From positions 1 through 9,430 of the forward strand of contig JAFQWB010000125.1 of the NCBI GenBank assembly GCA_017407725.1: a stretch of 9,430 nt of DNA, written 5' to 3'. Each line of letters opens with the position of its first letter. Position 1 is the first letter of the stretch. This DNA is from Clostridia bacterium (GTDB lineage Bacteria; Bacillota_A; Clostridia; Oscillospirales; CAG-272). A program made the position numbers and the translations under genes. Of this stretch, positions 1 to 9,430 are shown piece by piece. The notes under the pieces were generated by a model. It did not search any database and was not told the DNA's origin. It saw nothing but the letters and a program-made list of their open reading frames with translations.

Positions 1-914
1 CTTACCTTAAGATCGAAGTTGAAGCCTGTTCCGAAAATATTTTCACCTATAACGCCGTATTCCTTAGCCTGCTCGATAGCAGCCTCAAGACGCTCGATAG
101 CGATAGGATACTCTGCACGAACGTATACGTAACCCTCGTCTGCACCGATAGCGTAAGCTGCAATAGCCATAGCCTCGATAACCGCATGCGGGTCACCCTC
201 AAGAACAGATCTATCCATGAATGCACCGGGGTCGCCCTCGTCGGCATTACATGCAACATACTTCTTAACCTGTCCTCTGTTTGCGCAAGCGAACTTCCAC
301 TTAAGACCTGTGGGGAATCCGCCGCCGCCTCTTCCTCTGAGTCCGCTATCAAGAACTGTAGCGATAACGTCATCGGGAGTCATTTCTGTGAGCGACTTTG
401 CAAGAGCCTGGTAACCGTCTCTTGCTATGTACTCTCTGATATCCATAGGATTGATAACACCGCAGTTACGAAGAGCAACTCTCTCCTGCTTCTTATAGAA
501 GGTCATCTCGTTAAGAGATGCTACTGCATGGTGGTCACCTGTCATCTCGTGGAACTGAATACGCTCAACGGGAACGTTGTTTACGATGTGAGATTCAACG
601 ATCTCCTTAACGTCCTCAACCTTAACCATTGAATAGAAGGTTCCTTCGGGATAAACTATTACAACAGGGCCGAGTGCACAAAGACCGAAGCATCCTGTAA
701 GAACGAGCTTTGTTGTCTCTTCTACGCCTGCTGCCGCGAGTTCCTTCTGGAACTCATCATAAAGAACTGTACTTCCTGAAGATGTACATCCTGTACCGCC
801 GCAAACAAGAACGTGCTTCTTGTAGGGGCTATCTACGTGATCCTTCTCACGAAGAGTGACAAGAGGAAGATATTCAGCTCTTGCCAGCTTAAGATCTGCT
901 ACTGTTTTAATCAT
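1..914 (-). CDS. NuoF/HndC-like NADH-binding flavoprotein subunit of an NAD(P)-linked hydrogenase or oxidoreductase (partial, 3' end off window)
   Basis: The first 304 residues are visible; the C-terminal part lies beyond the left edge. An N-terminal thioredoxin-like [2Fe-2S] domain has cysteines C38, C43, C75 and C79 (CX4C and CX3C). The NuoF core follows, with the FMN/NADH-binding glycine-rich motif GLRGRGGGGFPTGLKW (191-206) and ADEGDPGAFMDR (224-235). By family knowledge such subunits oxidise or reduce NAD(P)H at FMN and pass electrons to Fe-S clusters. The fused N-terminal ferredoxin-like domain is typical of HndC/HydB subunits of multimeric [FeFe] hydrogenases rather than of complex I NuoF. 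The start at 914 has GGAGG 11 nt upstream. An in-frame ATG at 932 overlaps the stop of the preceding gene (TAATG) but has no Shine-Dalgarno of its own and would put the GGAGG inside the coding region. The gene is co-transcribed with the NuoE-like gene. The catalytic partner is not visible, so hydrogenase versus another NADH-linked complex cannot be settled here. Confidence 0.93.
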   Translation of the reverse strand, partial: MIKTVADLKLARAEYLPLVTLREKDHVDSPYKKHVLVCGGTGCTSSGSTVLYDEFQKELAAAGVEETTKLVLTGCFGLCALGPVVIVYPEGTFYSMVKVEDVKEIVESHIVNNVPVERIQFHEMTGDHHAVASLNEMTFYKKQERVALRNCGVINPMDIREYIARDGYQALAKSLTEMTPDDVIATVLDSGLRGRGGGGFPTGLKWKFACANRGQVKKYVACNADEGDPGAFMDRSVLEGDPHAVIEAMAIAAYAIGADEGYVYVRAEYPIAIERLEAAIEQAKEYGVIGENIFGTGFNFDLKV

Positions 915-931
915 ATCTTTCTCTGCCTCCA

Positions 932-1429
932 TTAGTTTTTATATTTTGCAACAATTCCGGGGATCATATCGGTTGTAAGTCTTCCGTATACTTCTCCGTT
1001 AATTGTCATAACAGGTGCAAGTCCGCATGCACCGATGCATCTGTTTGCTTCGAGTGAGAACTTTCCGTCGGGTGATGTTGATCCGGGCTCAAGAGAAAGC
1101 TCCTTTTCGAGTGCATCGAGAATGTCCTTGCTTCCCTTAACGTAGCAAGCAGTACCGAGACAAACCGCAATAGCGATCTCGCCTGTAGGATTGAGAGAGA
1201 ACTGTGCGTAGAAGGATGCTACGCCGTAAACCTCCTCAAGAGATACGTCAAGCTCGAGAGCGATTATACGCTGAACCTCGATCGGAAGATAACCGTAAAT
1301 GCCCTGTGCTGCCTGAAGTACGGGCATAAGCGCGCCGGGTATTCCGCGATTCTTTTCAATTGCGGCACGAAGCTGCGCTTCCTGTTCCGCGGTTCCCTTG
1401 AAGGCAACCGTTGTCAGTTTCTTTTTCAT
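932..1429 (-). CDS. NuoE/HndA-like [2Fe-2S] subunit (24-kDa subunit family)
   Basis: A 165-residue thioredoxin-like ferredoxin, the usual length for the NuoE family. The four [2Fe-2S] ligands are intact: C90 and C95 (CLGTAC), C131 and C135 (CIGAC). A helical N-terminal part carries the family segment GIPGALMPVLQAAQGIYGYL (29-48). By family knowledge it transfers electrons between the flavin subunit and other clusters in NADH dehydrogenases and NAD(P)-linked [FeFe] hydrogenases, in the cytoplasm. The start at 1429 is preferred because an AGGAGG lies just upstream and the protein then begins MKKKLTT. A longer reading to 1474 adds 15 hydrophobic, non-conserved residues and runs through the Shine-Dalgarno. 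It is first in the operon, with its stop overlapping an in-frame ATG of the NuoF-like gene, and is served by the extended -10 promoter at 1500-1528. Confidence 0.94.
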   Translation of the reverse strand: MKKKLTTVAFKGTAEQEAQLRAAIEKNRGIPGALMPVLQAAQGIYGYLPIEVQRIIALELDVSLEEVYGVASFYAQFSLNPTGEIAIAVCLGTACYVKGSKDILDALEKELSLEPGSTSPDGKFSLEANRCIGACGLAPVMTINGEVYGRLTTDMIPGIVAKYKN

Positions 1430-1499
1430 TGGAAAAACCCTCCTGTGAAATATATTAATTAAAAATAAGACCAATAAACAGACTTTTCAGTCTCATAGT

Positions 1500-1528
1500 A
1501 TTATAGCACATATCGCTTACAATTTCCA
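1500..1528 (-). promoter_or_regulatory. Sigma-A-type promoter with extended -10 for the NuoE/NuoF operon
   Basis: On the minus strand a perfect TATAAT (1505-1500) is preceded by TGC, an extended -10. Exactly 17 bp upstream is TGGAAA (1528-1523), four of six matches to TTGACA. Predicted transcription starts near 1493, leaving a leader of about 65 nt before the ATG at 1429. T-runs on the plus strand at 1533-1538, 1554-1559 and 1561-1567 are A-tracts upstream of this -35 and could act as an UP element. Confidence 0.7.
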
Positions 1529-1690
1529 TAGGTTTTTTAAAAATATTTCGTGGTTTTTTCTTTTTTTACATCAAAAACAGGCGTATTTTACAAGCAATTA
1601 CCGAAAAAGCTCGGCATCGGAATCAAAAGACGCCTTACAATGCTTTGAAACGGCATATTTTCAGAAGGATAAAAGTTTTTACAAATTCAC

Positions 1691-1719
1691 TTGATAAAAA
1701 GAATTTTTTGTGATATAAT
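1691..1719 (+). promoter_or_regulatory. Sigma-A-type promoter for the Mrp-family gene
   Basis: TTGATA (1691-1696) and TATAAT (1714-1719) are separated by exactly 17 bp, and TG at 1711-1712 gives an extended -10 (TGATATAAT). Transcription would begin near 1726, about 35 nt before the ATG at 1761. This is a near-consensus vegetative promoter, so strong constitutive expression is the simplest inference. Confidence 0.82.
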
Positions 1720-1760
1720 TTAAGAGTAAATATACATCTTAGGAAAGGAAAGTGAAAACT

Positions 1761-2609
1761 ATGGATGATATGGAAAAAACCGAAGGCTGTACTCACGATT
1801 GTTCAACGTGCTCTGCAGCTTGTTCATCAAAAAACAAAGGTCAGACAGATTCTCTTAAGGAAGCACAGAATCAGCTGAGCGACGTTAAAAAGGTAATTGC
1901 GGTAGTAAGCGGCAAGGGCGGCGTAGGAAAATCGCTCGTAACCTCTATGATGGCAGTTACTGCGTCTCGCGCAGGCTATAAGACCGCTATACTCGACGCG
2001 GATATAACAGGTCCTTCTATCCCCAAGATATTCGGAATAAAGGGCGAGGTTACCGGATGCGAATACGGAATGTTCCCTCTCAAGAGCACTACCGGAATAC
2101 GCGCCATGAGCGTCAATATGCTTCTTGAGGACGAAACCGCTCCCGTTGTGTGGAGAGGACCTGTTATCGCAGGAACGGTAAAGCAGTTCTGGACAGACGT
2201 ATGCTGGGGCGACGTAGACTATATGTTCGTCGATATGCCCCCCGGAACAGGCGACGTTCCGCTTACAATATTCCAGTCACTTCCCGTTGACGGAATCATT
2301 ATTGTAACTTCTCCTCAGGATCTCGTATCCATGATCGTTGCAAAGGCAGTAAACATGGCAAAGATGATGAATATTCCAATCATCGGAATAGTTGAAAACT
2401 ACAGCTATTTCGTTTGTCCCGACTGCGGCAAAACACACAACATTTTCGGTGAGAGCAACAGCGAGAAGGTTGCTGAAGAATACGGTCTCAAGCTTCTTGC
2501 AAAGCTTCCGCTTGACAGAAAGCTCGCCGCTCTGTGCGACAGAGGTATGATCGAGCTTATGGAAAACGACTATCTTGATGGCGCCTTCTGTGAAATAGAC
2601 GGCAAATAA
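1761..2609 (+). CDS. Mrp/NBP35-family Fe-S cluster carrier P-loop ATPase
   Basis: A 282-residue cytoplasmic ATPase of the Mrp/ApbC/NBP35 family, which by family knowledge binds an Fe-S cluster and delivers it to apo-proteins. A cysteine-rich N-terminus has C10, C14, C17 and C21 (CX3CX2CX3C), resembling eukaryotic NBP35. A deviant Walker A GKGGVGKS (51-58) follows, then a Walker B-like FVDMPPGTGD (156-165) and the CxxC pair C219/C222 (CPDC), the usual cluster site at the dimer interface. There is no DUF59 domain in front, as is common in clostridial members. The start is ambiguous: a GTG at 1752 would add MKT, and the AGGAAAGGA stretch at 1741-1749 could serve either codon. It is transcribed from 1691-1719, ends at a strong terminator, and diverges from Fe-S-rich redox genes that are plausible cargo (inference). 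Confidence 0.93.
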   Translation: MDDMEKTEGCTHDCSTCSAACSSKNKGQTDSLKEAQNQLSDVKKVIAVVSGKGGVGKSLVTSMMAVTASRAGYKTAILDADITGPSIPKIFGIKGEVTGCEYGMFPLKSTTGIRAMSVNMLLEDETAPVVWRGPVIAGTVKQFWTDVCWGDVDYMFVDMPPGTGDVPLTIFQSLPVDGIIIVTSPQDLVSMIVAKAVNMAKMMNIPIIGIVENYSYFVCPDCGKTHNIFGESNSEKVAEEYGLKLLAKLPLDRKLAALCDRGMIELMENDYLDGAFCEIDGK

Positions 2610-2617
2610 CCGATTTC

Positions 2618-2650
2618 AAGGGAGTGAAGAGTCATCTTCACTCCCTTTTT
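2618..2650 (+). terminator. Rho-independent terminator after the Mrp-family gene
   Basis: GGGAGTGAAGA (2620-2630) pairs perfectly with TCTTCACTCCC (2635-2645) around the 4-nt loop GTCA, extendable by two A-T pairs, and is followed by TTTTT (2646-2650). Only 28 bases separate its T-tract from the next ATG, so it could also work as an attenuator of the lipoprotein gene. Confidence 0.9.
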
Positions 2651-2678
2651 GCAGATTTTCGGAAAGGAACTAAAGAAA

Positions 2679-5600
2679 ATGAAAAAAATCAAAATCATTA
2701 CTCTGCTTTCGGCCATTCTCATTCTTACATCACTTCTTGTTTCGTGCGGCGGTAAAAGCGAAATCACCCACAAGGTAAGCTTCAACGGTGCCGAGATCGA
2801 AGTCAAGGCAGGCTCACTTCTGGAAAAGCCCTCCGACCCGAAAAAAGCACCTACAGACGCTCTTATCTATACCTTCAAGGGCTGGTACGTAGAAGGCACC
2901 GACAAGGAGTGGAACTTCGAGAAAGACAAGGTCACATCAGACGTAAGCCTTGTTCCTCTCTTCTCAGAGTCAGCCCGCACGTACACCGTAACATTTGAAA
3001 ACGACGAAAAAGTAACACTTGCATACGGCTCGCTTATAACAGAGCCCGCAACACCCGAAGCACCTGTCAAGGAAAATACACGATATATTTTTGATGGATG
3101 GTATAATACTTCAACTATGGAAAAATGGAATTTTGAAAGTGACACTCTAAAGGGAGACGTTACCCTTGCCGCACGTTTCACCGAAGAAGGAAAATCCGAT
3201 CTCAAGATAACACTAAGGCCTACCGAGGTAACGCTTGACGGAACTTCATTCCCCTCATTTTCTTACACACAGGAAGAATATAAGGGCATGACCCTCACGG
3301 TTACCGACGAAGCCAAAAACGAAGTAGCATCGGTAAAACTGAGCGATGCAGGAAACGCGCTCCTTTCTCTCTTCCCCGGAAAATACACCTGCAAGATCGA
3401 GACCCCCGACGGCTCTGTAAGTGCCACGTACAATCACTCTGCAAATGAAGAGCAGACGATCACCGTAACAAGAACTGCCAAATATCCTTCAACCATGGGA
3501 AGCTCATCCGACCCGTACAAGTATCCCTCATACGGTTCAAACTACAGAATTTCAAAAGGACAAATATATCTTTCAAGCTACACCTACATATACCTCGGAG
3601 ACGGAACTCTTACCGACAAGGTGTACATCGAAGCAACGGTAAATCTTCCCTCATCCATGCTCGGATCAATGTACGGAATCATGCCTGCGTGTGAGTACGG
3701 AAACCTCTCAAACGATGCAAACAAGGCTCTCGCCGGTGCATCCGACAAAGCTGCAAAGAAGCTTGTATTCGGATATTCGGCAAACAACACTCTATACTCT
3801 CAGAGCATTAGCGGATGGAGCGGTTCTTCAATAGTTTCCGAAAAGGTATTCAGCTCATCCGAAGTCAAGAACACAAGCCACAAGCTTGGAGTTTTAAGAT
3901 GCGGAAACTACTATTTCGTATTTGTTAACGGCAATCTCGCATGTGAATACTACACCGATGAATACGGAAAGTCGGGATACGGATTTGCACTCACCTCTCC
4001 CGTAGGCTCAAGTCTTATCGGATTTTCCGATATCATTACAATCACCGATGATTCGATCATAAACAGCATGGCTGAAAAATACGCAGGAACCACCTCTGTT
4101 GAATATGATTCTTCTCTTTTCACCATGGAGCAGGGCGGCGTAACGGTTAAGGACAGCGTTATAAAGGGTATTCCCGTAACCGCCACCGTAAAGCTCGGAG
4201 CAAACGAAACGATCCTCTCGTATTCAGTAAAGCTTGACGGCAAGGAGATTGAATTCACAGAAGCAGGAAGCACTGTTTCCTTCACTCCCCTTTCGGACGG
4301 AAAATACGTCGTCAGTGCAGTCAAGACCGCAAAAGCCGAAAGCACTTTGAATTACACCGTCAAGCCCTTTGAGATCAGTCTTTCAGACAAATCGTACACC
4401 CTCAGAGATTTCAGCTTCGACATGAGCGAGGTCAAGGTTTCGATTTACGACAAGACGTCGGGCAAGACAAGCGCTCTCACTCTTGACAAAAACGGATCGC
4501 TCGCACTTGACTGCGGAAGATACACGGTAAGAGCGGAATACAAGTCGAACGTATTTGAAAAGGATATCACGGTATATTCGAATCTTACGAACACAATTGA
4601 TATTTACTTATCCGATTCCTATCTCGGAGGCGCGATCACCCTTAACGGCACAAAATTCTACAGCTACAACGAGGCAACCGAGACTGCCGAAAAGGGCGTT
4701 TCGTGGTCGCTTATAGACAAGATGCGCGACAGCGTTCTTCTCACCTCATACACATACGCCTTCCAGAAAGGATTCACGGGAACAAGATATTACGTTGAAG
4801 GAACCTTTGATTCCTCACTTCCCTCTTACAATATAAGATCGGGACTCGGCGCGCTTCTTGTCTCTCACGGACCGAAAAAGCTTGCCGACTCAAGCGACGT
4901 CAAGGTAATGGCGGCAATTTACGGCGAAAGCGTTATACTTTGCGTATCGGACAACTGGGCTGCAGACAAAACCATAACACTTGCCAACTACACCGACTTT
5001 GGCGTAGAGCCGGGTGAGAGCGTACGTCTCGGAGTTGTGCGCGACGGCACCGATTATTATTTCTTTGTTAACGACACCTATGTTGCTTACAGAAAGATCG
5101 AGAGTGTAAAGGGCGAATGCGGAATCGGAGTTGCCGGCTTCCCCTCATCTGTTGAAATAAGAAAATTCAACTACTCTGATTCAGACGAGCTCATAGATGC
5201 CCTCATAGCTGAAAAGACACCTTCTCCCACATCTATCGACATCTACCTCATTGCAGGTCAGTCCAACGCATCGGGTTACTCACTCGGAAACGCATCCTCG
5301 CTTCTTTCGGGCGACAAGAGATACGTTTACGGAAACTCAAATATCCTCTATGCAGGTAACGGTCAGTCCACAAACTGGAACAATCTCACAACAGGCTCTT
5401 TCAACAGCAACCGCTATGAGTGGGGCGTTGCAAGATTCGGTCAGGGTCATTCTCCGAATCATTTAAGTGCGGAGGTCGGAATGATCTCGGCTCTCTCTGA
5501 ATACTACAACACCGAAACGGGCAGAGTTGCGGGCATCATTAAATACGCTCACGGCGGAACCTCCCTTCTGAACAACGAGGGCGGCGAAAACATATGTGCA

Positions 5601-6158
5601 GGTAACTGGATGTCTCCCTCGTATGCAGAGTCGCTCAAAAAGAACTACACGGGTCTTTGCGGCGGTCTTTACAGAAACCTTCTTGCAGAGGTCACGGCAA
5701 GAGTTGCGGAGCTCAGAGCGATGGGCTTTACCGAAATAAACCTCAAGGGAATGTTCTGGATGCAGGGCGAAGCCGATCTCACCGCGCTTACTGCTTATGA
5801 GAAGTCCTTCACGTATTTCGTTTCGGATATCAGACGCGATCTCGGCAAAATAATGGGCGAGGATCTTTCGGACTTTGCCTTTATCGTCGGTGAGGTTTCA
5901 GAAACGTTTGCAAGTGCAAGCTCGGGACAGGTAAACACCAACAAGAACTTCATAAAGCTTCAGAGAAAGCTTGCGGAGAACATTGACGGCGTTTATACTA
6001 TCGAGTCAAGCAAATATGACATCAACAAGCTTGTAGGAGGCTCAAGCGTTGCAGTCGGAACAGACATTTACCACTGGTCGGGCAATGATATGGTTGAAAT
6101 CGGAAAGCTTGTAGGAAAATCGATTCTCAAAAACATTCTTAACATAACCGAAAGCTGA
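2679..6158 (+). CDS. Large surface lipoprotein with InlB-type repeats, duplicated beta-sandwich modules and a C-terminal SASA-type (sialate O-acetylesterase / acetylxylan esterase) SGNH domain
   Basis: A 1159-residue exported protein. A lipoprotein signal peptide has lysines at 2, 3 and 5, a hydrophobic core, and lipobox LVSC with C23. Two Listeria-Bacteroides (InlB B-type) repeats follow (about 29-97 and 101-168), each with the GWY signature (68-70, 140-142). Next come two related modules of a small beta domain plus a jellyroll-like domain (about 173-460 and 560-835), linked by an Ig-like stretch. The catalytic domain (about 850-1155) has GQSN with candidate nucleophile S862, HGGTS (958-962), WMQGEAD (1027-1033) and DIYH with D1129 and H1132. 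These match the SASA/CE6 family, which removes O-acetyl groups from sialic acids or xylan; the substrate cannot be chosen from sequence. The ATG at 2679 is preferred over the TTG at 2649 because it gives the signal peptide and has AAGGA 10 nt upstream. It is monocistronic, between two terminators. Confidence 0.9.
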   Translation: MKKIKIITLLSAILILTSLLVSCGGKSEITHKVSFNGAEIEVKAGSLLEKPSDPKKAPTDALIYTFKGWYVEGTDKEWNFEKDKVTSDVSLVPLFSESARTYTVTFENDEKVTLAYGSLITEPATPEAPVKENTRYIFDGWYNTSTMEKWNFESDTLKGDVTLAARFTEEGKSDLKITLRPTEVTLDGTSFPSFSYTQEEYKGMTLTVTDEAKNEVASVKLSDAGNALLSLFPGKYTCKIETPDGSVSATYNHSANEEQTITVTRTAKYPSTMGSSSDPYKYPSYGSNYRISKGQIYLSSYTYIYLGDGTLTDKVYIEATVNLPSSMLGSMYGIMPACEYGNLSNDANKALAGASDKAAKKLVFGYSANNTLYSQSISGWSGSSIVSEKVFSSSEVKNTSHKLGVLRCGNYYFVFVNGNLACEYYTDEYGKSGYGFALTSPVGSSLIGFSDIITITDDSIINSMAEKYAGTTSVEYDSSLFTMEQGGVTVKDSVIKGIPVTATVKLGANETILSYSVKLDGKEIEFTEAGSTVSFTPLSDGKYVVSAVKTAKAESTLNYTVKPFEISLSDKSYTLRDFSFDMSEVKVSIYDKTSGKTSALTLDKNGSLALDCGRYTVRAEYKSNVFEKDITVYSNLTNTIDIYLSDSYLGGAITLNGTKFYSYNEATETAEKGVSWSLIDKMRDSVLLTSYTYAFQKGFTGTRYYVEGTFDSSLPSYNIRSGLGALLVSHGPKKLADSSDVKVMAAIYGESVILCVSDNWAADKTITLANYTDFGVEPGESVRLGVVRDGTDYYFFVNDTYVAYRKIESVKGECGIGVAGFPSSVEIRKFNYSDSDELIDALIAEKTPSPTSIDIYLIAGQSNASGYSLGNASSLLSGDKRYVYGNSNILYAGNGQSTNWNNLTTGSFNSNRYEWGVARFGQGHSPNHLSAEVGMISALSEYYNTETGRVAGIIKYAHGGTSLLNNEGGENICAGNWMSPSYAESLKKNYTGLCGGLYRNLLAEVTARVAELRAMGFTEINLKGMFWMQGEADLTALTAYEKSFTYFVSDIRRDLGKIMGEDLSDFAFIVGEVSETFASASSGQVNTNKNFIKLQRKLAENIDGVYTIESSKYDINKLVGGSSVAVGTDIYHWSGNDMVEIGKLVGKSILKNILNITES

Positions 6159-6170
6159 TCATCACAAACA

Positions 6171-6206
6171 AAAACACGGTCTTGCATTTTCGCAAGACCG
6201 TGTTTT
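6171..6206. terminator. Bidirectional rho-independent terminator between the lipoprotein and mnmA
   Basis: AAAACACGGTCTTGC (6171-6185) and GCAAGACCGTGTTTT (6192-6206) form a perfect 15-bp stem around a 6-nt loop. A T-run extends to 6209 on the plus strand, and the 5' A-run supplies a U-tract on the minus strand. It lies between two convergent genes, 12 bp after the lipoprotein stop and immediately before the mnmA stop at 6208, and probably terminates both. Confidence 0.93.
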
Positions 6207-6207
6207 T

Positions 6208-7260
6208 TTATATCCGTTTGTTTCTTTCTATTATACCGCTGAAAAGAACAGCTCCGTCGTCAGAATAAAACACCGCGAACTGCCCGGGTGCGGCAATCTG
6301 AGAGACGCCGTCGTACTCGACCGTTGCTCTTTGGTTTTTGATGGTAACTCTCGCATCTCTTTCGCCCGCGGAGTATCTTATCTTGACCTTTGCAAAGATC
6401 TCAGCATCATCTGTCGGGGGAAGCCCCAAGAACGAGAGATCCTTTACAGAAAAGCTTTTTTCGGTAAAATCCTCTTTTGCGGCAAGAGTTACCGTATTTG
6501 CCAAAGGGTCTATGTCGGTAACAAAGGCTCTGTGACCAAGCGCGATTCCGAGTCCTCTTCTCTGTCCGACGGTATAATTAAGTATACCCTCGTGCATGCC
6601 GAGCACCCTTCCGTTTTTGTCAACGAAGCTTCCCTTTTCGGTATCTCTGTAATTTTCTCTTATATATGACGCGTAGTCGTTACCCTCTACAAAACAGATA
6701 TCCTGGCTTTCGGAAAGCGAGGCAGACGTTTTTTTCGTATCAAGTGCGATACGCTTTATCTCATCCTTTGAGTAAAGCTCAAGCGGTGCGGTAAAGCGCT
6801 CTATCTGATACTGCTCCAGTCTTGAAAGCATATAGCTCTGATCCTTCTTTAGGTCGCTTCCCTTTTTAACGGTATATCTTCGGTTATCAAGCAAAATCGG
6901 AGAGGCATAGTGACCGGTTGCATATTTATCCGCACCAAGCTCCTCTGAAAGTCTGCAAAGACTTTCCATCTTGACAAATCTGTTACAAATAACGCAGGGG
7001 TTGGGTGTTCCTCCCTCAAGATAGGTGTTTGCAAAATAGTCTATGACATTTTTCTTGAATTCCTCGCGCCTATCGATAACGTAAAGAGGAATATCAGCCT
7101 CTTTTGCAGCTACCCTTGCCCTTTCGGGATCATCTCTGTCCGAAAAGATTATATAAGCTCCGACAACCTCGGAAAAACTGTTTTTGAGAAGCTCTGCGCA
7201 GACAGACGAGTCTACACCGCCGCTCATTCCGAGCAGCACCTTTGATCTCTTTGTACTCAT
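6208..7260 (-). CDS. mnmA: tRNA-specific 2-thiouridylase MnmA
   Basis: A 350-residue cytoplasmic enzyme that activates the C2 of wobble uridine-34 in tRNA Lys, Glu and Gln with ATP and replaces oxygen with sulfur. The N-terminal PP-loop SGGVDSS (13-19) binds ATP. ATGHY (114-118) is present. The two catalytic cysteines fall in TPNPCVICN (85-93; C92) and SQDICF (185-190; C189). The central domain has GQRRGLGI (232-239) and the C-terminal beta-barrel has APGQFAVFY near the end. Length is close to the family norm. C89 is an extra cysteine three residues before the catalytic C92. It is last in a three-gene operon, 10 nt after the dihydroorotase-like stop. No good Shine-Dalgarno is seen in that gap, only GTGGAA inside the preceding gene's end, so translation may depend on coupling. 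Confidence 0.95.
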   Translation of the reverse strand: MSTKRSKVLLGMSGGVDSSVCAELLKNSFSEVVGAYIIFSDRDDPERARVAAKEADIPLYVIDRREEFKKNVIDYFANTYLEGGTPNPCVICNRFVKMESLCRLSEELGADKYATGHYASPILLDNRRYTVKKGSDLKKDQSYMLSRLEQYQIERFTAPLELYSKDEIKRIALDTKKTSASLSESQDICFVEGNDYASYIRENYRDTEKGSFVDKNGRVLGMHEGILNYTVGQRRGLGIALGHRAFVTDIDPLANTVTLAAKEDFTEKSFSVKDLSFLGLPPTDDAEIFAKVKIRYSAGERDARVTIKNQRATVEYDGVSQIAAPGQFAVFYSDDGAVLFSGIIERNKRI

Positions 7261-7270
7261 AATAATTATT

Positions 7271-8554
7271 TTATTCCACTAATTTTCCACCAATAACACG
7301 GAGCATTATCTTACCGCCGAGAGTCATTCCTATGCAGGGCGTATTCTTGGCCTTGCTCTTAAGCGCATTCTCGCTAACCGTAGTTTTTCCCTCAAGCGAG
7401 AGCAAGAGAAGATTCGCGATCTCTCCCTCTTTTATCTCGTTTGATCTTCCCACAAACGAGGACGGAAAATCCGAAAAAAGTGAGCACAGCCTGAATATAT
7501 CTACGTACCCCGCAGAAAGAAGCGCGCTCACGGCAAGAGAGAATGCTATATCAAGTGAAACCGCACCGAATGCCGCATCAGAGACGGGCAGACTCTTTTC
7601 TGCGGGGGCGCAGGGTGTATGATTTGATACAATGGCATCGACCGTTCCGTCAGAAATAGCCTCAATAACGGCAAGTCTGTCATCCTCGCTCGAAAGCGGC
7701 GGATCTGTTTTGGCATTCTGTCCGTAGAAAATAACGTCGTTATCTATCATAAAGAAATGGTAAGGACTTACGCTGCAGCTGATATTCGATCCCTCAGCCT
7801 TTGCCCTTCTGACCATCTCAAAGGACTCTCTTTTTGAAAGCAGAGCTACGTGCACGGGGCATCCCGTTTCCCTTGCGAGAACGAGTATTTTTGCAAGTGC
7901 AAGAGTCTCTGCGCATCTCGGTATCGGCTCTGCCTTAAGCATATTTGATGCGCGTCCGGGCGAGAGCGCGCCCTTTTTATACATTTCGCTTTCTTTACAT
8001 CTTACGATAAGCGGATATCCTGCGCTTTTGCATTTTAACATAGCATCGTAAAGCTCATACGTGCTGTCATCGCCCTCGCTTACAAAAACAGAAGCCCCTT
8101 CTGCAAAAAGCGCAGGCATAGAGATCGGCTCACGCCTTTCTCCTCTTTCGCCCGTAATGGGGGCGGCACAGAGCACCTCGCTTACACATCTTGACGAGTG
8201 TGCCTTAATATGTCTTACGACCGCACTCTCTGAGGTTCCCTTCGGAACGTCGGGAATGACCACCATCTGAGCGTATCCGCCCTCAAGAGCCGCCTCTGCA
8301 CTTTTTGAAATGGTATCTCTGTACGCGTATGCAGGCTCACCCGTTCTTGCATACAGGTCTGTAAAAGCAGGGACTACAAGATGCCCCATGGCGTTTATGA
8401 CCTTTGCATTCATTGTGCGTGTGAGTGTGATCTCTTTATCTGTTTTTTCTATCCTTCCGCTATTAAGATCGATAAGAATATCCGAATCCTCAAAGGTCTT
8501 TTCCCTGCTTCTTACGATTCTTGCGTTTTTTATAAGAAGGTGAGTGAGACTCAT
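7271..8554 (-). CDS. Dihydroorotase homologue of the amidohydrolase superfamily, catalytic metal ligands lost (probable pseudoenzyme)
   Basis: The 427 residues span a complete type I dihydroorotase fold, about the normal length (~425). Family landmarks are recognisable but altered. The metal motif normally DLHVHLREPG reads DLYARTGEPA (66-75), so both histidines are Y68 and R70 and the substrate arginine is G72. MPNT becomes IPDV (100-103), FSDDG becomes FVSEG (157-161), HAED becomes RCKE (185-188), CHVST becomes ALLSK (237-241), and DHAPH becomes NHTPC (311-315). Retained are VSPYH (262-266) and PPL (285-287). Every expected metal ligand appears replaced, so conversion of carbamoyl aspartate to dihydroorotate is unlikely. 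Known inactive homologues such as Pseudomonas PyrC' have a structural role with aspartate transcarbamoylase, but no pyrB is in the window. Its ATG overlaps the regulator's stop (ATGA), implying translational coupling. The frame is open throughout, so it is a conserved protein rather than a decayed gene. Confidence 0.88.
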   Translation of the reverse strand: MSLTHLLIKNARIVRSREKTFEDSDILIDLNSGRIEKTDKEITLTRTMNAKVINAMGHLVVPAFTDLYARTGEPAYAYRDTISKSAEAALEGGYAQMVVIPDVPKGTSESAVVRHIKAHSSRCVSEVLCAAPITGERGERREPISMPALFAEGASVFVSEGDDSTYELYDAMLKCKSAGYPLIVRCKESEMYKKGALSPGRASNMLKAEPIPRCAETLALAKILVLARETGCPVHVALLSKRESFEMVRRAKAEGSNISCSVSPYHFFMIDNDVIFYGQNAKTDPPLSSEDDRLAVIEAISDGTVDAIVSNHTPCAPAEKSLPVSDAAFGAVSLDIAFSLAVSALLSAGYVDIFRLCSLFSDFPSSFVGRSNEIKEGEIANLLLLSLEGKTTVSENALKSKAKNTPCIGMTLGGKIMLRVIGGKLVE

Positions 8555-9144
8555 TTTAAGTCACCCGAGCCTGCAAGCATATATCCGATTCCTCTCACCG
8601 TAACGATAAATCTCTTACCGAATCTGAAATCTATCTTCTTTCTGATATAATTTATGTATACAACAAGAGAATTTCCCTTTTCGTCGCCGCCCCACACGCG
8701 TCTTGTTATCTCCTCCGCGCTTACAGCCGTTCCTCTTTTTTCAAGAAGAATTTCAAATATTGAATATTCGATCTCTGACAGAGGTATTACCGATTTGTTA
8801 TATATAAGCGCGCCCGGAACAAGTGTGAAATCCTCGCTATCGGTTTCCTCTGCAGAAAGTCTGCTTCTGACCTGCCTTACAAAGGCATCCATCTCAAAGG
8901 GTCTTACGAAGGTTGGCTCAAGTGTAGCGTCTGTTGAAAAGGTTATATCTGCGCCCGACGATGCCTTGGCACTGTCGAGATCGACGATCGAAAAGCATCT
9001 CTTCTTGGGAAGTGTGCTTACTATCGCCGCCGTGAAGCCCTCTTCCTCAAGAACAAGCTGTATCATTCGTGAAAATCTTCTGTCCTGAGAAACTATATAA
9101 ACGTCGGCGTATGCCGATGTCATAATATCGGGGTTTATTGCCAT
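8551..9144 (-). CDS. OmpR/PhoB-type winged-helix transcriptional regulator with a degenerate, shortened receiver domain
   Basis: A 197-residue DNA-binding protein. The C-terminal half (about 105-193) is a convincing Trans_reg_C winged helix, with PLSEIEYSIFEILLEKRG (121-138), the recognition-helix region SLVVYINYIRKKI (149-161) and the wing TVRGIGYML (182-190). The N-terminal half starts like a receiver (VYIVSQD, 15-21) but has S19-Q20 where the acidic pair should be. A possible phospho-acceptor is D55 in IVDLD, and R81 in VRPF stands where the conserved lysine is expected. D55 to R81 is 26 residues, against about 50 in normal receivers, so alpha-3/beta-4 is largely missing. The start at 9144 has AAAGGGA upstream. 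The longer reading to 9210 would be encoded by the aldolase terminator hairpin. The stop overlaps the dihydroorotase-like ATG. No histidine kinase is nearby; phosphorylation-independent action is inferred. Confidence 0.88.
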   Translation of the reverse strand: MAINPDIMTSAYADVYIVSQDRRFSRMIQLVLEEEGFTAAIVSTLPKKRCFSIVDLDSAKASSGADITFSTDATLEPTFVRPFEMDAFVRQVRSRLSAEETDSEDFTLVPGALIYNKSVIPLSEIEYSIFEILLEKRGTAVSAEEITRRVWGGDEKGNSLVVYINYIRKKIDFRFGKRFIVTVRGIGYMLAGSGDLK

Positions 9145-9178
9145 ACCGTTATCCCTTTCGTGATTTTCTTTATTATTC

Positions 9179-9210
9179 AAAATGGCTGCCGCTGAAACGG
9201 CGGCAGCCAT
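9179..9210 (-). terminator. Rho-independent terminator of the fructose-bisphosphate aldolase gene
   Basis: ATGGCTGCCGC (9182-9192) and GCGGCAGCCAT (9200-9210) form a perfect 11-bp GC-rich stem with a 7-nt loop. On the minus strand it is followed by TTTT and an A/T-rich stretch. It lies 17 bases past the aldolase stop and upstream of the regulator start. The short T-run suggests some readthrough into the regulator operon is possible. Confidence 0.82.
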
Positions 9211-9227
9211 CCTTATTTTCCTGTCTG

Positions 9228-9430
9228 TCAGTTAGCGTTTTCAGATCCGAGAACGTTCTTGATCTTGTGAGCAACCATCTTCTTAACCTCTGCTCTTGCA
9301 ACGGTAAGATAGGTTCTGGGGTCAAATACGTCGGGCTGATCGTGGAATACCTGACGGATTCCTGCAGTCATAGCAAGACGGATATCGGAGTCGATGTTGA
9401 TCTTACATACCGCCATGGAAGCTGCCTTGC
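9228..9430 (-). CDS. fba: Class II fructose-bisphosphate aldolase, C-terminal fragment (5' end off window)
   Basis: The last 66 residues of the protein are present. They include CKINIDSDIRLAM, the C-terminal family signature containing the conserved NIDSD phosphate-binding segment. The tail FDPRTYLTVARAEVKKMV and HKIKNVLGSENAN is typical of the class II (zinc-dependent) aldolases of Firmicutes. By family knowledge the enzyme cleaves fructose-1,6-bisphosphate to glyceraldehyde-3-phosphate and dihydroxyacetone phosphate in glycolysis. An internal ATG at 9416 is not the start, since the frame stays open to the window edge. The catalytic zinc ligands lie outside the window. The gene ends at TGA (9230-9228) and is followed by its own hairpin terminator, so it is probably a separate transcription unit from the regulator. 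Confidence 0.93.
   Translation of the reverse strand, partial: KAASMAVCKINIDSDIRLAMTAGIRQVFHDQPDVFDPRTYLTVARAEVKKMVAHKIKNVLGSENAN

Follow-up and report, generated by a model that had tools for sequence, protein, structure and literature searches.

A full-length dihydroorotase homologue without the catalytic metal ligands, probably a pseudoenzyme, beside a regulator gene and mnmA in a Clostridia bacterium

Contig JAFQWB010000125.1 of a Clostridia bacterium (assembly GCA_017407725.1), of which positions 1 to 9,430 were analysed (the window, 9,430 nucleotides), carries a gene for a dihydroorotase homologue in which the metal-site residues are replaced. The protein is probably a pseudoenzyme with a non-catalytic, protein-contact role, whichever its partner. 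It would keep the type I dihydroorotase fold without the catalytic metal centre and would have been retained for binding another protein. The likeliest single partner would be the catalytic chain of an aspartate transcarbamoylase encoded elsewhere, and the homologue would serve its assembly or stability, like PyrC' in Pseudomonas. This partner is proposed tentatively, by analogy, and the co-translated regulator ranks close behind it; our higher confidence in a protein-contact role covers any partner, and thus includes the regulator. The observed basis is the homology, the ligand loss, the clade-wide pattern, the predicted intact fold and the operon anatomy; from these we infer that the protein lacks activity and is selected for contact with another protein, and which partner it has.

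Judged from sequence, homology to type I dihydroorotase is beyond chance. The best relative of solved structure by sequence is the S. aureus enzyme (3gri; phmmer E 1.5e-53, residues 7-424), and the NCBIfam dihydroorotase families are matched end to end, TIGR00857 at 236.2 bits and thus under its cut-off of 279.05; no Pfam family was matched at E 0.001. The first-pass annotation had described a full-length homologue with landmark motifs at normal spacing, and both points hold, as the alignment with type I enzymes runs from end to end and residues 185, 238 and 311 lie 53 and 73 residues apart, like H178, H231 and D304 of Bacillus velezensis PyrC. The predicted structure, modelling of which had been suggested there as a check, has an intact type I dihydroorotase fold with a mean predicted local distance difference test (pLDDT) score of 96.1. 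Active type I PyrC proteins (S. aureus 3gri, Aquifex 3d6n) therefore resemble the window protein in fold, length, landmark spacing and C-terminal motifs, and differ from it in that its six metal-site and three presumed substrate residues are changed and its score lies below the TIGR00857 cut-off.

The ligands of the Aquifex enzyme, as given in its description (PMC3880350), are H61, H63, D153, H180, H232 and D305. They align with Y68, R70, E160, R185, L238 and N311 of the window protein, so that all six metal-site residues differ, in agreement with the annotation's claim that every catalytic metal ligand is replaced; the change of the DDG Asp to E160 is conservative. The residues that it had named (Y68, R70, G72, R185, L238 and N311) are likewise as found here. 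R72, N102 and H315 of canonical enzymes, which we take to be substrate-binding positions, are G, D and C. Among 41 canonical rows, 58 columns are at least 95% constant, and the window protein differs at 6/6 metal-site columns versus 21/52 others (p=0.0073), in a test that is biased in favour of loss, the 41 rows having been picked for carrying four of the six metal residues; altogether 31 of the 58 columns are kept and 27 lost. Loss of HxH carries the most weight, because in the Aquifex enzyme the His residues of the beta site, which correspond to R185 and L238 here, are reportedly replaceable without effect (PMC3880350).

These replacements are not confined to one protein. Eight relatives from two protein searches (77 and 83 matches), 28-97% identical to the window protein and lacking each HxH His, group with it: P0001 (97%), P0002 (60%), P0003 (50%) and P0004, P0078, P0079, P0080 and P0082 (28-35%). 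The alignment (A5) holds 88 of 106 proteins, 18 near-duplicates, fragments and distant rows having been removed by hand; tree 1 has 68 rows, and tree 2 has 50 rows with the catalytic columns excluded. In both trees the nine rows, all full length, form one clade with support of 100/100. HxH is gone in every one of them, and the Asn-102 and His-315 positions are altered throughout, the latter to Cys in one subclade and to Asn in the other. Asp at positions 160 and 311 survives in P0002 and P0003, and the other seven rows keep none of the six canonical residues. A column-loss test was run on seven of the nine rows, leaving out the close copies P0001 and P0078; five of them (window, P0004, P0079, P0080 and P0082) have lost 6/6 metal columns with p below 0.01.

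In the nine pocket columns, four are invariant in each subclade (p 0.55, 0.26) and none across the seven rows, the samples being small. The emptied pocket is thus conserved no better than the rest of the protein, a pattern that, on sequence grounds, fits relaxed constraint on the pocket together with constraint on the remainder. This lack of excess conservation argues somewhat against a ligand sensor that acts via the old active site. The annotation had suggested selection for a non-catalytic function such as scaffold, ligand sensor or regulator partner, which is supported in part. That a non-catalytic protein has been maintained is well backed by a single clade of full-length members without HxH; scaffold, sensor and regulator partner are candidate roles.

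Other degenerate homologues, of Bacteroidota, alpha and beta type, form separate groups, the alpha group being weakly supported (95/62, 94/88). The three types join at 85/93 in tree 1, and alpha and beta join at 100/99 in tree 2. Tree 1 does not resolve the place of the window clade among canonical rows; in tree 2 the nearest row is the canonical dihydroorotase P0081 (95/84), which tree 1 puts elsewhere, and this position suggests that the window clade lost its ligands separately from the other degenerate types. A common clade is nevertheless not rejected by approximately unbiased (AU) tests, p being 0.14 for the window clade joined with the beta rows, 0.25 when the alpha rows are added and 0.18 for all degenerate rows together. 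The Bacteroidota-type homologues (P0068-P0070, P0094, P0101-P0103 and Rufibacter L014) are also full length with a broken metal site, but they have their own supported clade and other replacements, and the Rufibacter neighbours differ too. The Rufibacter homologue (L014:2995-4275, degenerate HxH in DLSAFTGEP) lies on a 12.5-kb plasmid with no annotated pyrB, overlaps a gene for a 556-aa hypothetical protein and stands beside DUF4199 and glycosyltransferase genes.

The reading frame is intact over 427 aa without an internal stop, as had been annotated, and the coordinates given for it are exact; the strand, which had been left unstated, is minus (Table 1). The tight operon that had been described is also borne out. 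In the sequence ATGA the stop of the upstream regulator gene overlaps the ATG of the dihydroorotase-like gene, whose own stop lies 10 nt before the start of mnmA. A hairpin before the regulator gene is the probable 5' border and another after mnmA the probable 3' end, and an operon of three genes (regulator, dihydroorotase-like gene, mnmA) is therefore probable; terminator-like hairpins are consensus matches only, with 11 in the window versus 3.4 in shuffles. A class II aldolase gene further upstream is set off from the operon by the first of these hairpins. The regulator open reading frame (ORF) is 219 aa long if begun at the upstream ATG at 9210. The three best matches of MnmA in plasmid records were two from Lachnospira eligens (42.6%) and one from Monoglobus (39.9%), a hint of a Clostridia host, and no Rfam family reached its gathering score within the window.

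Table 1. Positions of the putative pseudo-dihydroorotase gene and of the features around it in the window.
Feature	Positions	Strand	Details
Pseudo-dihydroorotase gene (putative), 427 aa	7271..8554	minus	ATG at 8554, stop 7271-7273, no internal stop
Its residues at catalytic positions: Y68/R70/G72/D102/E160/R185/L238/N311/C315	7271..8554	minus	Alignment
OmpR-family winged-helix regulator gene, receiver domain shortened and divergent	8551..9144	minus	197 aa from ATG 9144
mnmA, tRNA 2-thiouridine(34) synthase	6208..7260	minus	NF001138, 315.5 bits (cut-off 284)
Inverted repeat, terminator-like, between aldolase and regulator genes	9182..9210	plus in scan list	Minus-strand T-run read by eye
Terminator-like hairpin, 17 pairs, directly 3' of mnmA	6170..6207	minus	Terminator scan

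The closest known counterpart is PyrC' of Pseudomonas and other Proteobacteria, which is defined as a dihydroorotase-sized homologue without zinc ligands; the inactive pDHO of Pseudomonas is reported there to be required for active aspartate transcarbamoylase (PMC7053772). In the literature considered here, pseudo-dihydroorotases figure as partners of aspartate transcarbamoylase, from Proteobacteria and from fungi (PMC7053772, PMC2770081, PMC3880350, PMC10393844, PMC4581275). Like the PyrC' of class A2 aspartate transcarbamoylase, the window protein is a full-length type I homologue without zinc ligands. The presumed PyrC' rows of beta type share with it Arg for the second HxH His and at the H180 position, an acid at 102 and mostly HTP rather than HAP; they were called PyrC' by motif and by the source names of P0083 (Betaproteobacteria) and P0099 (Caldimonas), and Pseudomonas PyrC' is not among them. 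This recurrence of Arg at the H63 and H180 positions makes the PyrC' precedent, already cited in the annotation, an apt one. There are also differences. The equivalent of D305 is kept in the presumed PyrC' rows, as in P0002 and P0003, but lost in the window protein, and PyrC' is known adjoining pyrB, whereas the window gene adjoins the regulator gene and mnmA. A count of beta-PyrC'-specific residues (7/60 shared by window-subclade rows, 10/60 by alpha and 3/60 by Bacteroidota-type rows) was set aside as weak, with three rows per group and a circular canonical control, the residues having been picked for their rarity there. On pSymB of Sinorhizobium meliloti (L013:2051-4281), pyrB is directly followed by a dihydroorotase homologue that has lost HxH (DARVFVGEP) and is annotated as dihydroorotase.

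Several observations weigh against a non-catalytic partner protein of this kind. pyrB was not identified among the main ORFs of the window, as the annotation had remarked, and the gene keeps company with mnmA and a regulator gene instead of pyr genes. Neither tree groups the window clade with the PyrC'-type rows, although the AU tests leave such a group unrejected. The top Foldseek match by E-value is a dihydroorotase from Bacillus (4yiw), the Aquifex enzyme being slightly ahead by template modelling (TM) score (0.92 vs 0.90), and the better Z score to the transcarbamoylase-bound Aquifex form may reflect ordered loops only. In the column-loss test P0002 and P0003 have lost 4/6 metal columns, which is not significant (p 0.16, 0.21). 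Position 102 is acidic (Asp or Glu) in 9/9 clade rows versus Asn in 41/41 canonical rows, which speaks against an entirely relaxed pocket and hints that some of it may be of importance. Finally, Pseudomonas PyrC2 is reported to be active without zinc residues, so that ligand loss is no proof of inactivity (PMC2770081).

The partner may instead be the regulator, a special case of the non-catalytic role that we regard as possible. The pseudo-dihydroorotase would bind the co-translated OmpR-type regulator and pass on a pyrimidine-related or other signal, the reduced receiver being perhaps unfit for a normal phosphorelay. The receiver is about 30 residues shorter than normal; a model of middling confidence lacks the helices that follow strands 2-4, and one of the two usual N-terminal receiver acids is lost. 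Beyond this shortened receiver and the ATGA overlap of the two genes, co-occurrence elsewhere speaks for such a pairing. One word-based search (255 candidates) found four close regulator homologues, of which P0107 appears to lie beside P0001 and P0108 beside P0003, adjacency being judged from equal longest contigs (7057 and 3246 bases); in the second pair the identities are 59% and 50%. However, the other two, P0110 (58%; 13 contigs, longest 14238) and P0109 (longest contig 1737), have no counterpart of equal longest contig among the 77 and 83 matches, and no regulator match was found for the contigs of P0004 (21861) or P0082 (49257) in the same search, which may miss some. The window regulator and its four close homologues retain the Asp that follows the third receiver strand, so phosphorylation is possible, and conservation of the former ligand pocket does not exceed the background level. 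To our knowledge there is no precedent for a pseudo-dihydroorotase as a regulator partner. The more specific proposal, in which the dihydroorotase-derived pseudoenzyme would be the input subunit of the shrunken-receiver regulator, and the two proteins a switch linking pyrimidine status, or another signal, to the mnmA-containing operon, is doubtful.

It is unlikely that the protein is an active hydrolase, metal-independent or differently metallated, like Pseudomonas PyrC2. PyrC2, known here by description only, shares with the window protein the lack of conserved zinc-binding residues and differs in being reportedly active and zinc-regulated. It is described as dihydroorotase-active without zinc residues (PMC2770081) and as complementing loss of its paralogue (PMC10393844), and the type I enzyme of Aquifex as tolerating loss of beta-site His (PMC3880350); Asp at 160 and 311 is moreover retained in P0002 and P0003. 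However, HxH is absent from 9/9 clade rows, in which the Asn-102 and His-315 positions are changed as well, and no zinc-responsive or PyrC2-type neighbour, such as folE2 or a carbonic anhydrase paralogue, was identified in the window.

A decaying gene, that is, a recent pseudogene whose frame is open by chance, would agree with the variable pocket and with the long branch to the clade (0.74 and 0.70 changes per column in trees 1 and 2), but is very improbable, as the window protein and its eight relatives, the most distant at 28% identity, are full length (although any entry in a protein database has an open frame by definition), 31 of the 58 strongly conserved columns are kept, the fold prediction is confident and the gene lies inside an operon.

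The scan of genome contigs returned only two distant loci, at 25% identity, in a Gastranaerophilales and a Sulfurimonas genome; the TIGR00857 matches in these two genomes fall below the cut-off (0 of 2 above it). A viral origin finds no support: in five scans of viral contigs, the clade alignment matched two distant loci (28%), and four single proteins used as queries brought up no confirmed relative. In plasmid records there were 230 matches; the best 15 of the 230 were at most 30.2% identical, and of these the five that were examined all fell outside the clade.

The novelty is a clade set apart in trees from PyrC', in a different operon setting, of an already known kind of pseudoenzyme; no paper on pseudoenzymes in Clostridia was found in a literature search that lay largely outside subscription journals. 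If aspartate transcarbamoylase is the partner, class A2-type assembly would be extended to another lineage, and if the partner is another protein, a second fate for the dihydroorotase fold would be indicated. In addition, automatic 'dihydroorotase' labels can wrongly suggest pyrimidine prototrophy.

The rest of the window holds genes of other kinds. On the minus strand at 3-1474 lie a NuoE/HoxE-like subunit and a NuoF-like subunit that is cut at the window end and bears an N-terminal thioredoxin-like ferredoxin domain. A P-loop ATPase of the Mrp/NBP35-type iron-sulphur carriers is encoded at 1752-2609 on the plus strand (PF10609, 302 bits; MrpORP 340 vs a cut-off of 450). It is followed on the same strand, at 2649-6158, by a 1169-aa protein that looks lipoprotein-like by eye at its N-terminus and contains a SASA (sialic acid-specific acetylesterase) domain as well as two Listeria-Bacteroides repeat domains.
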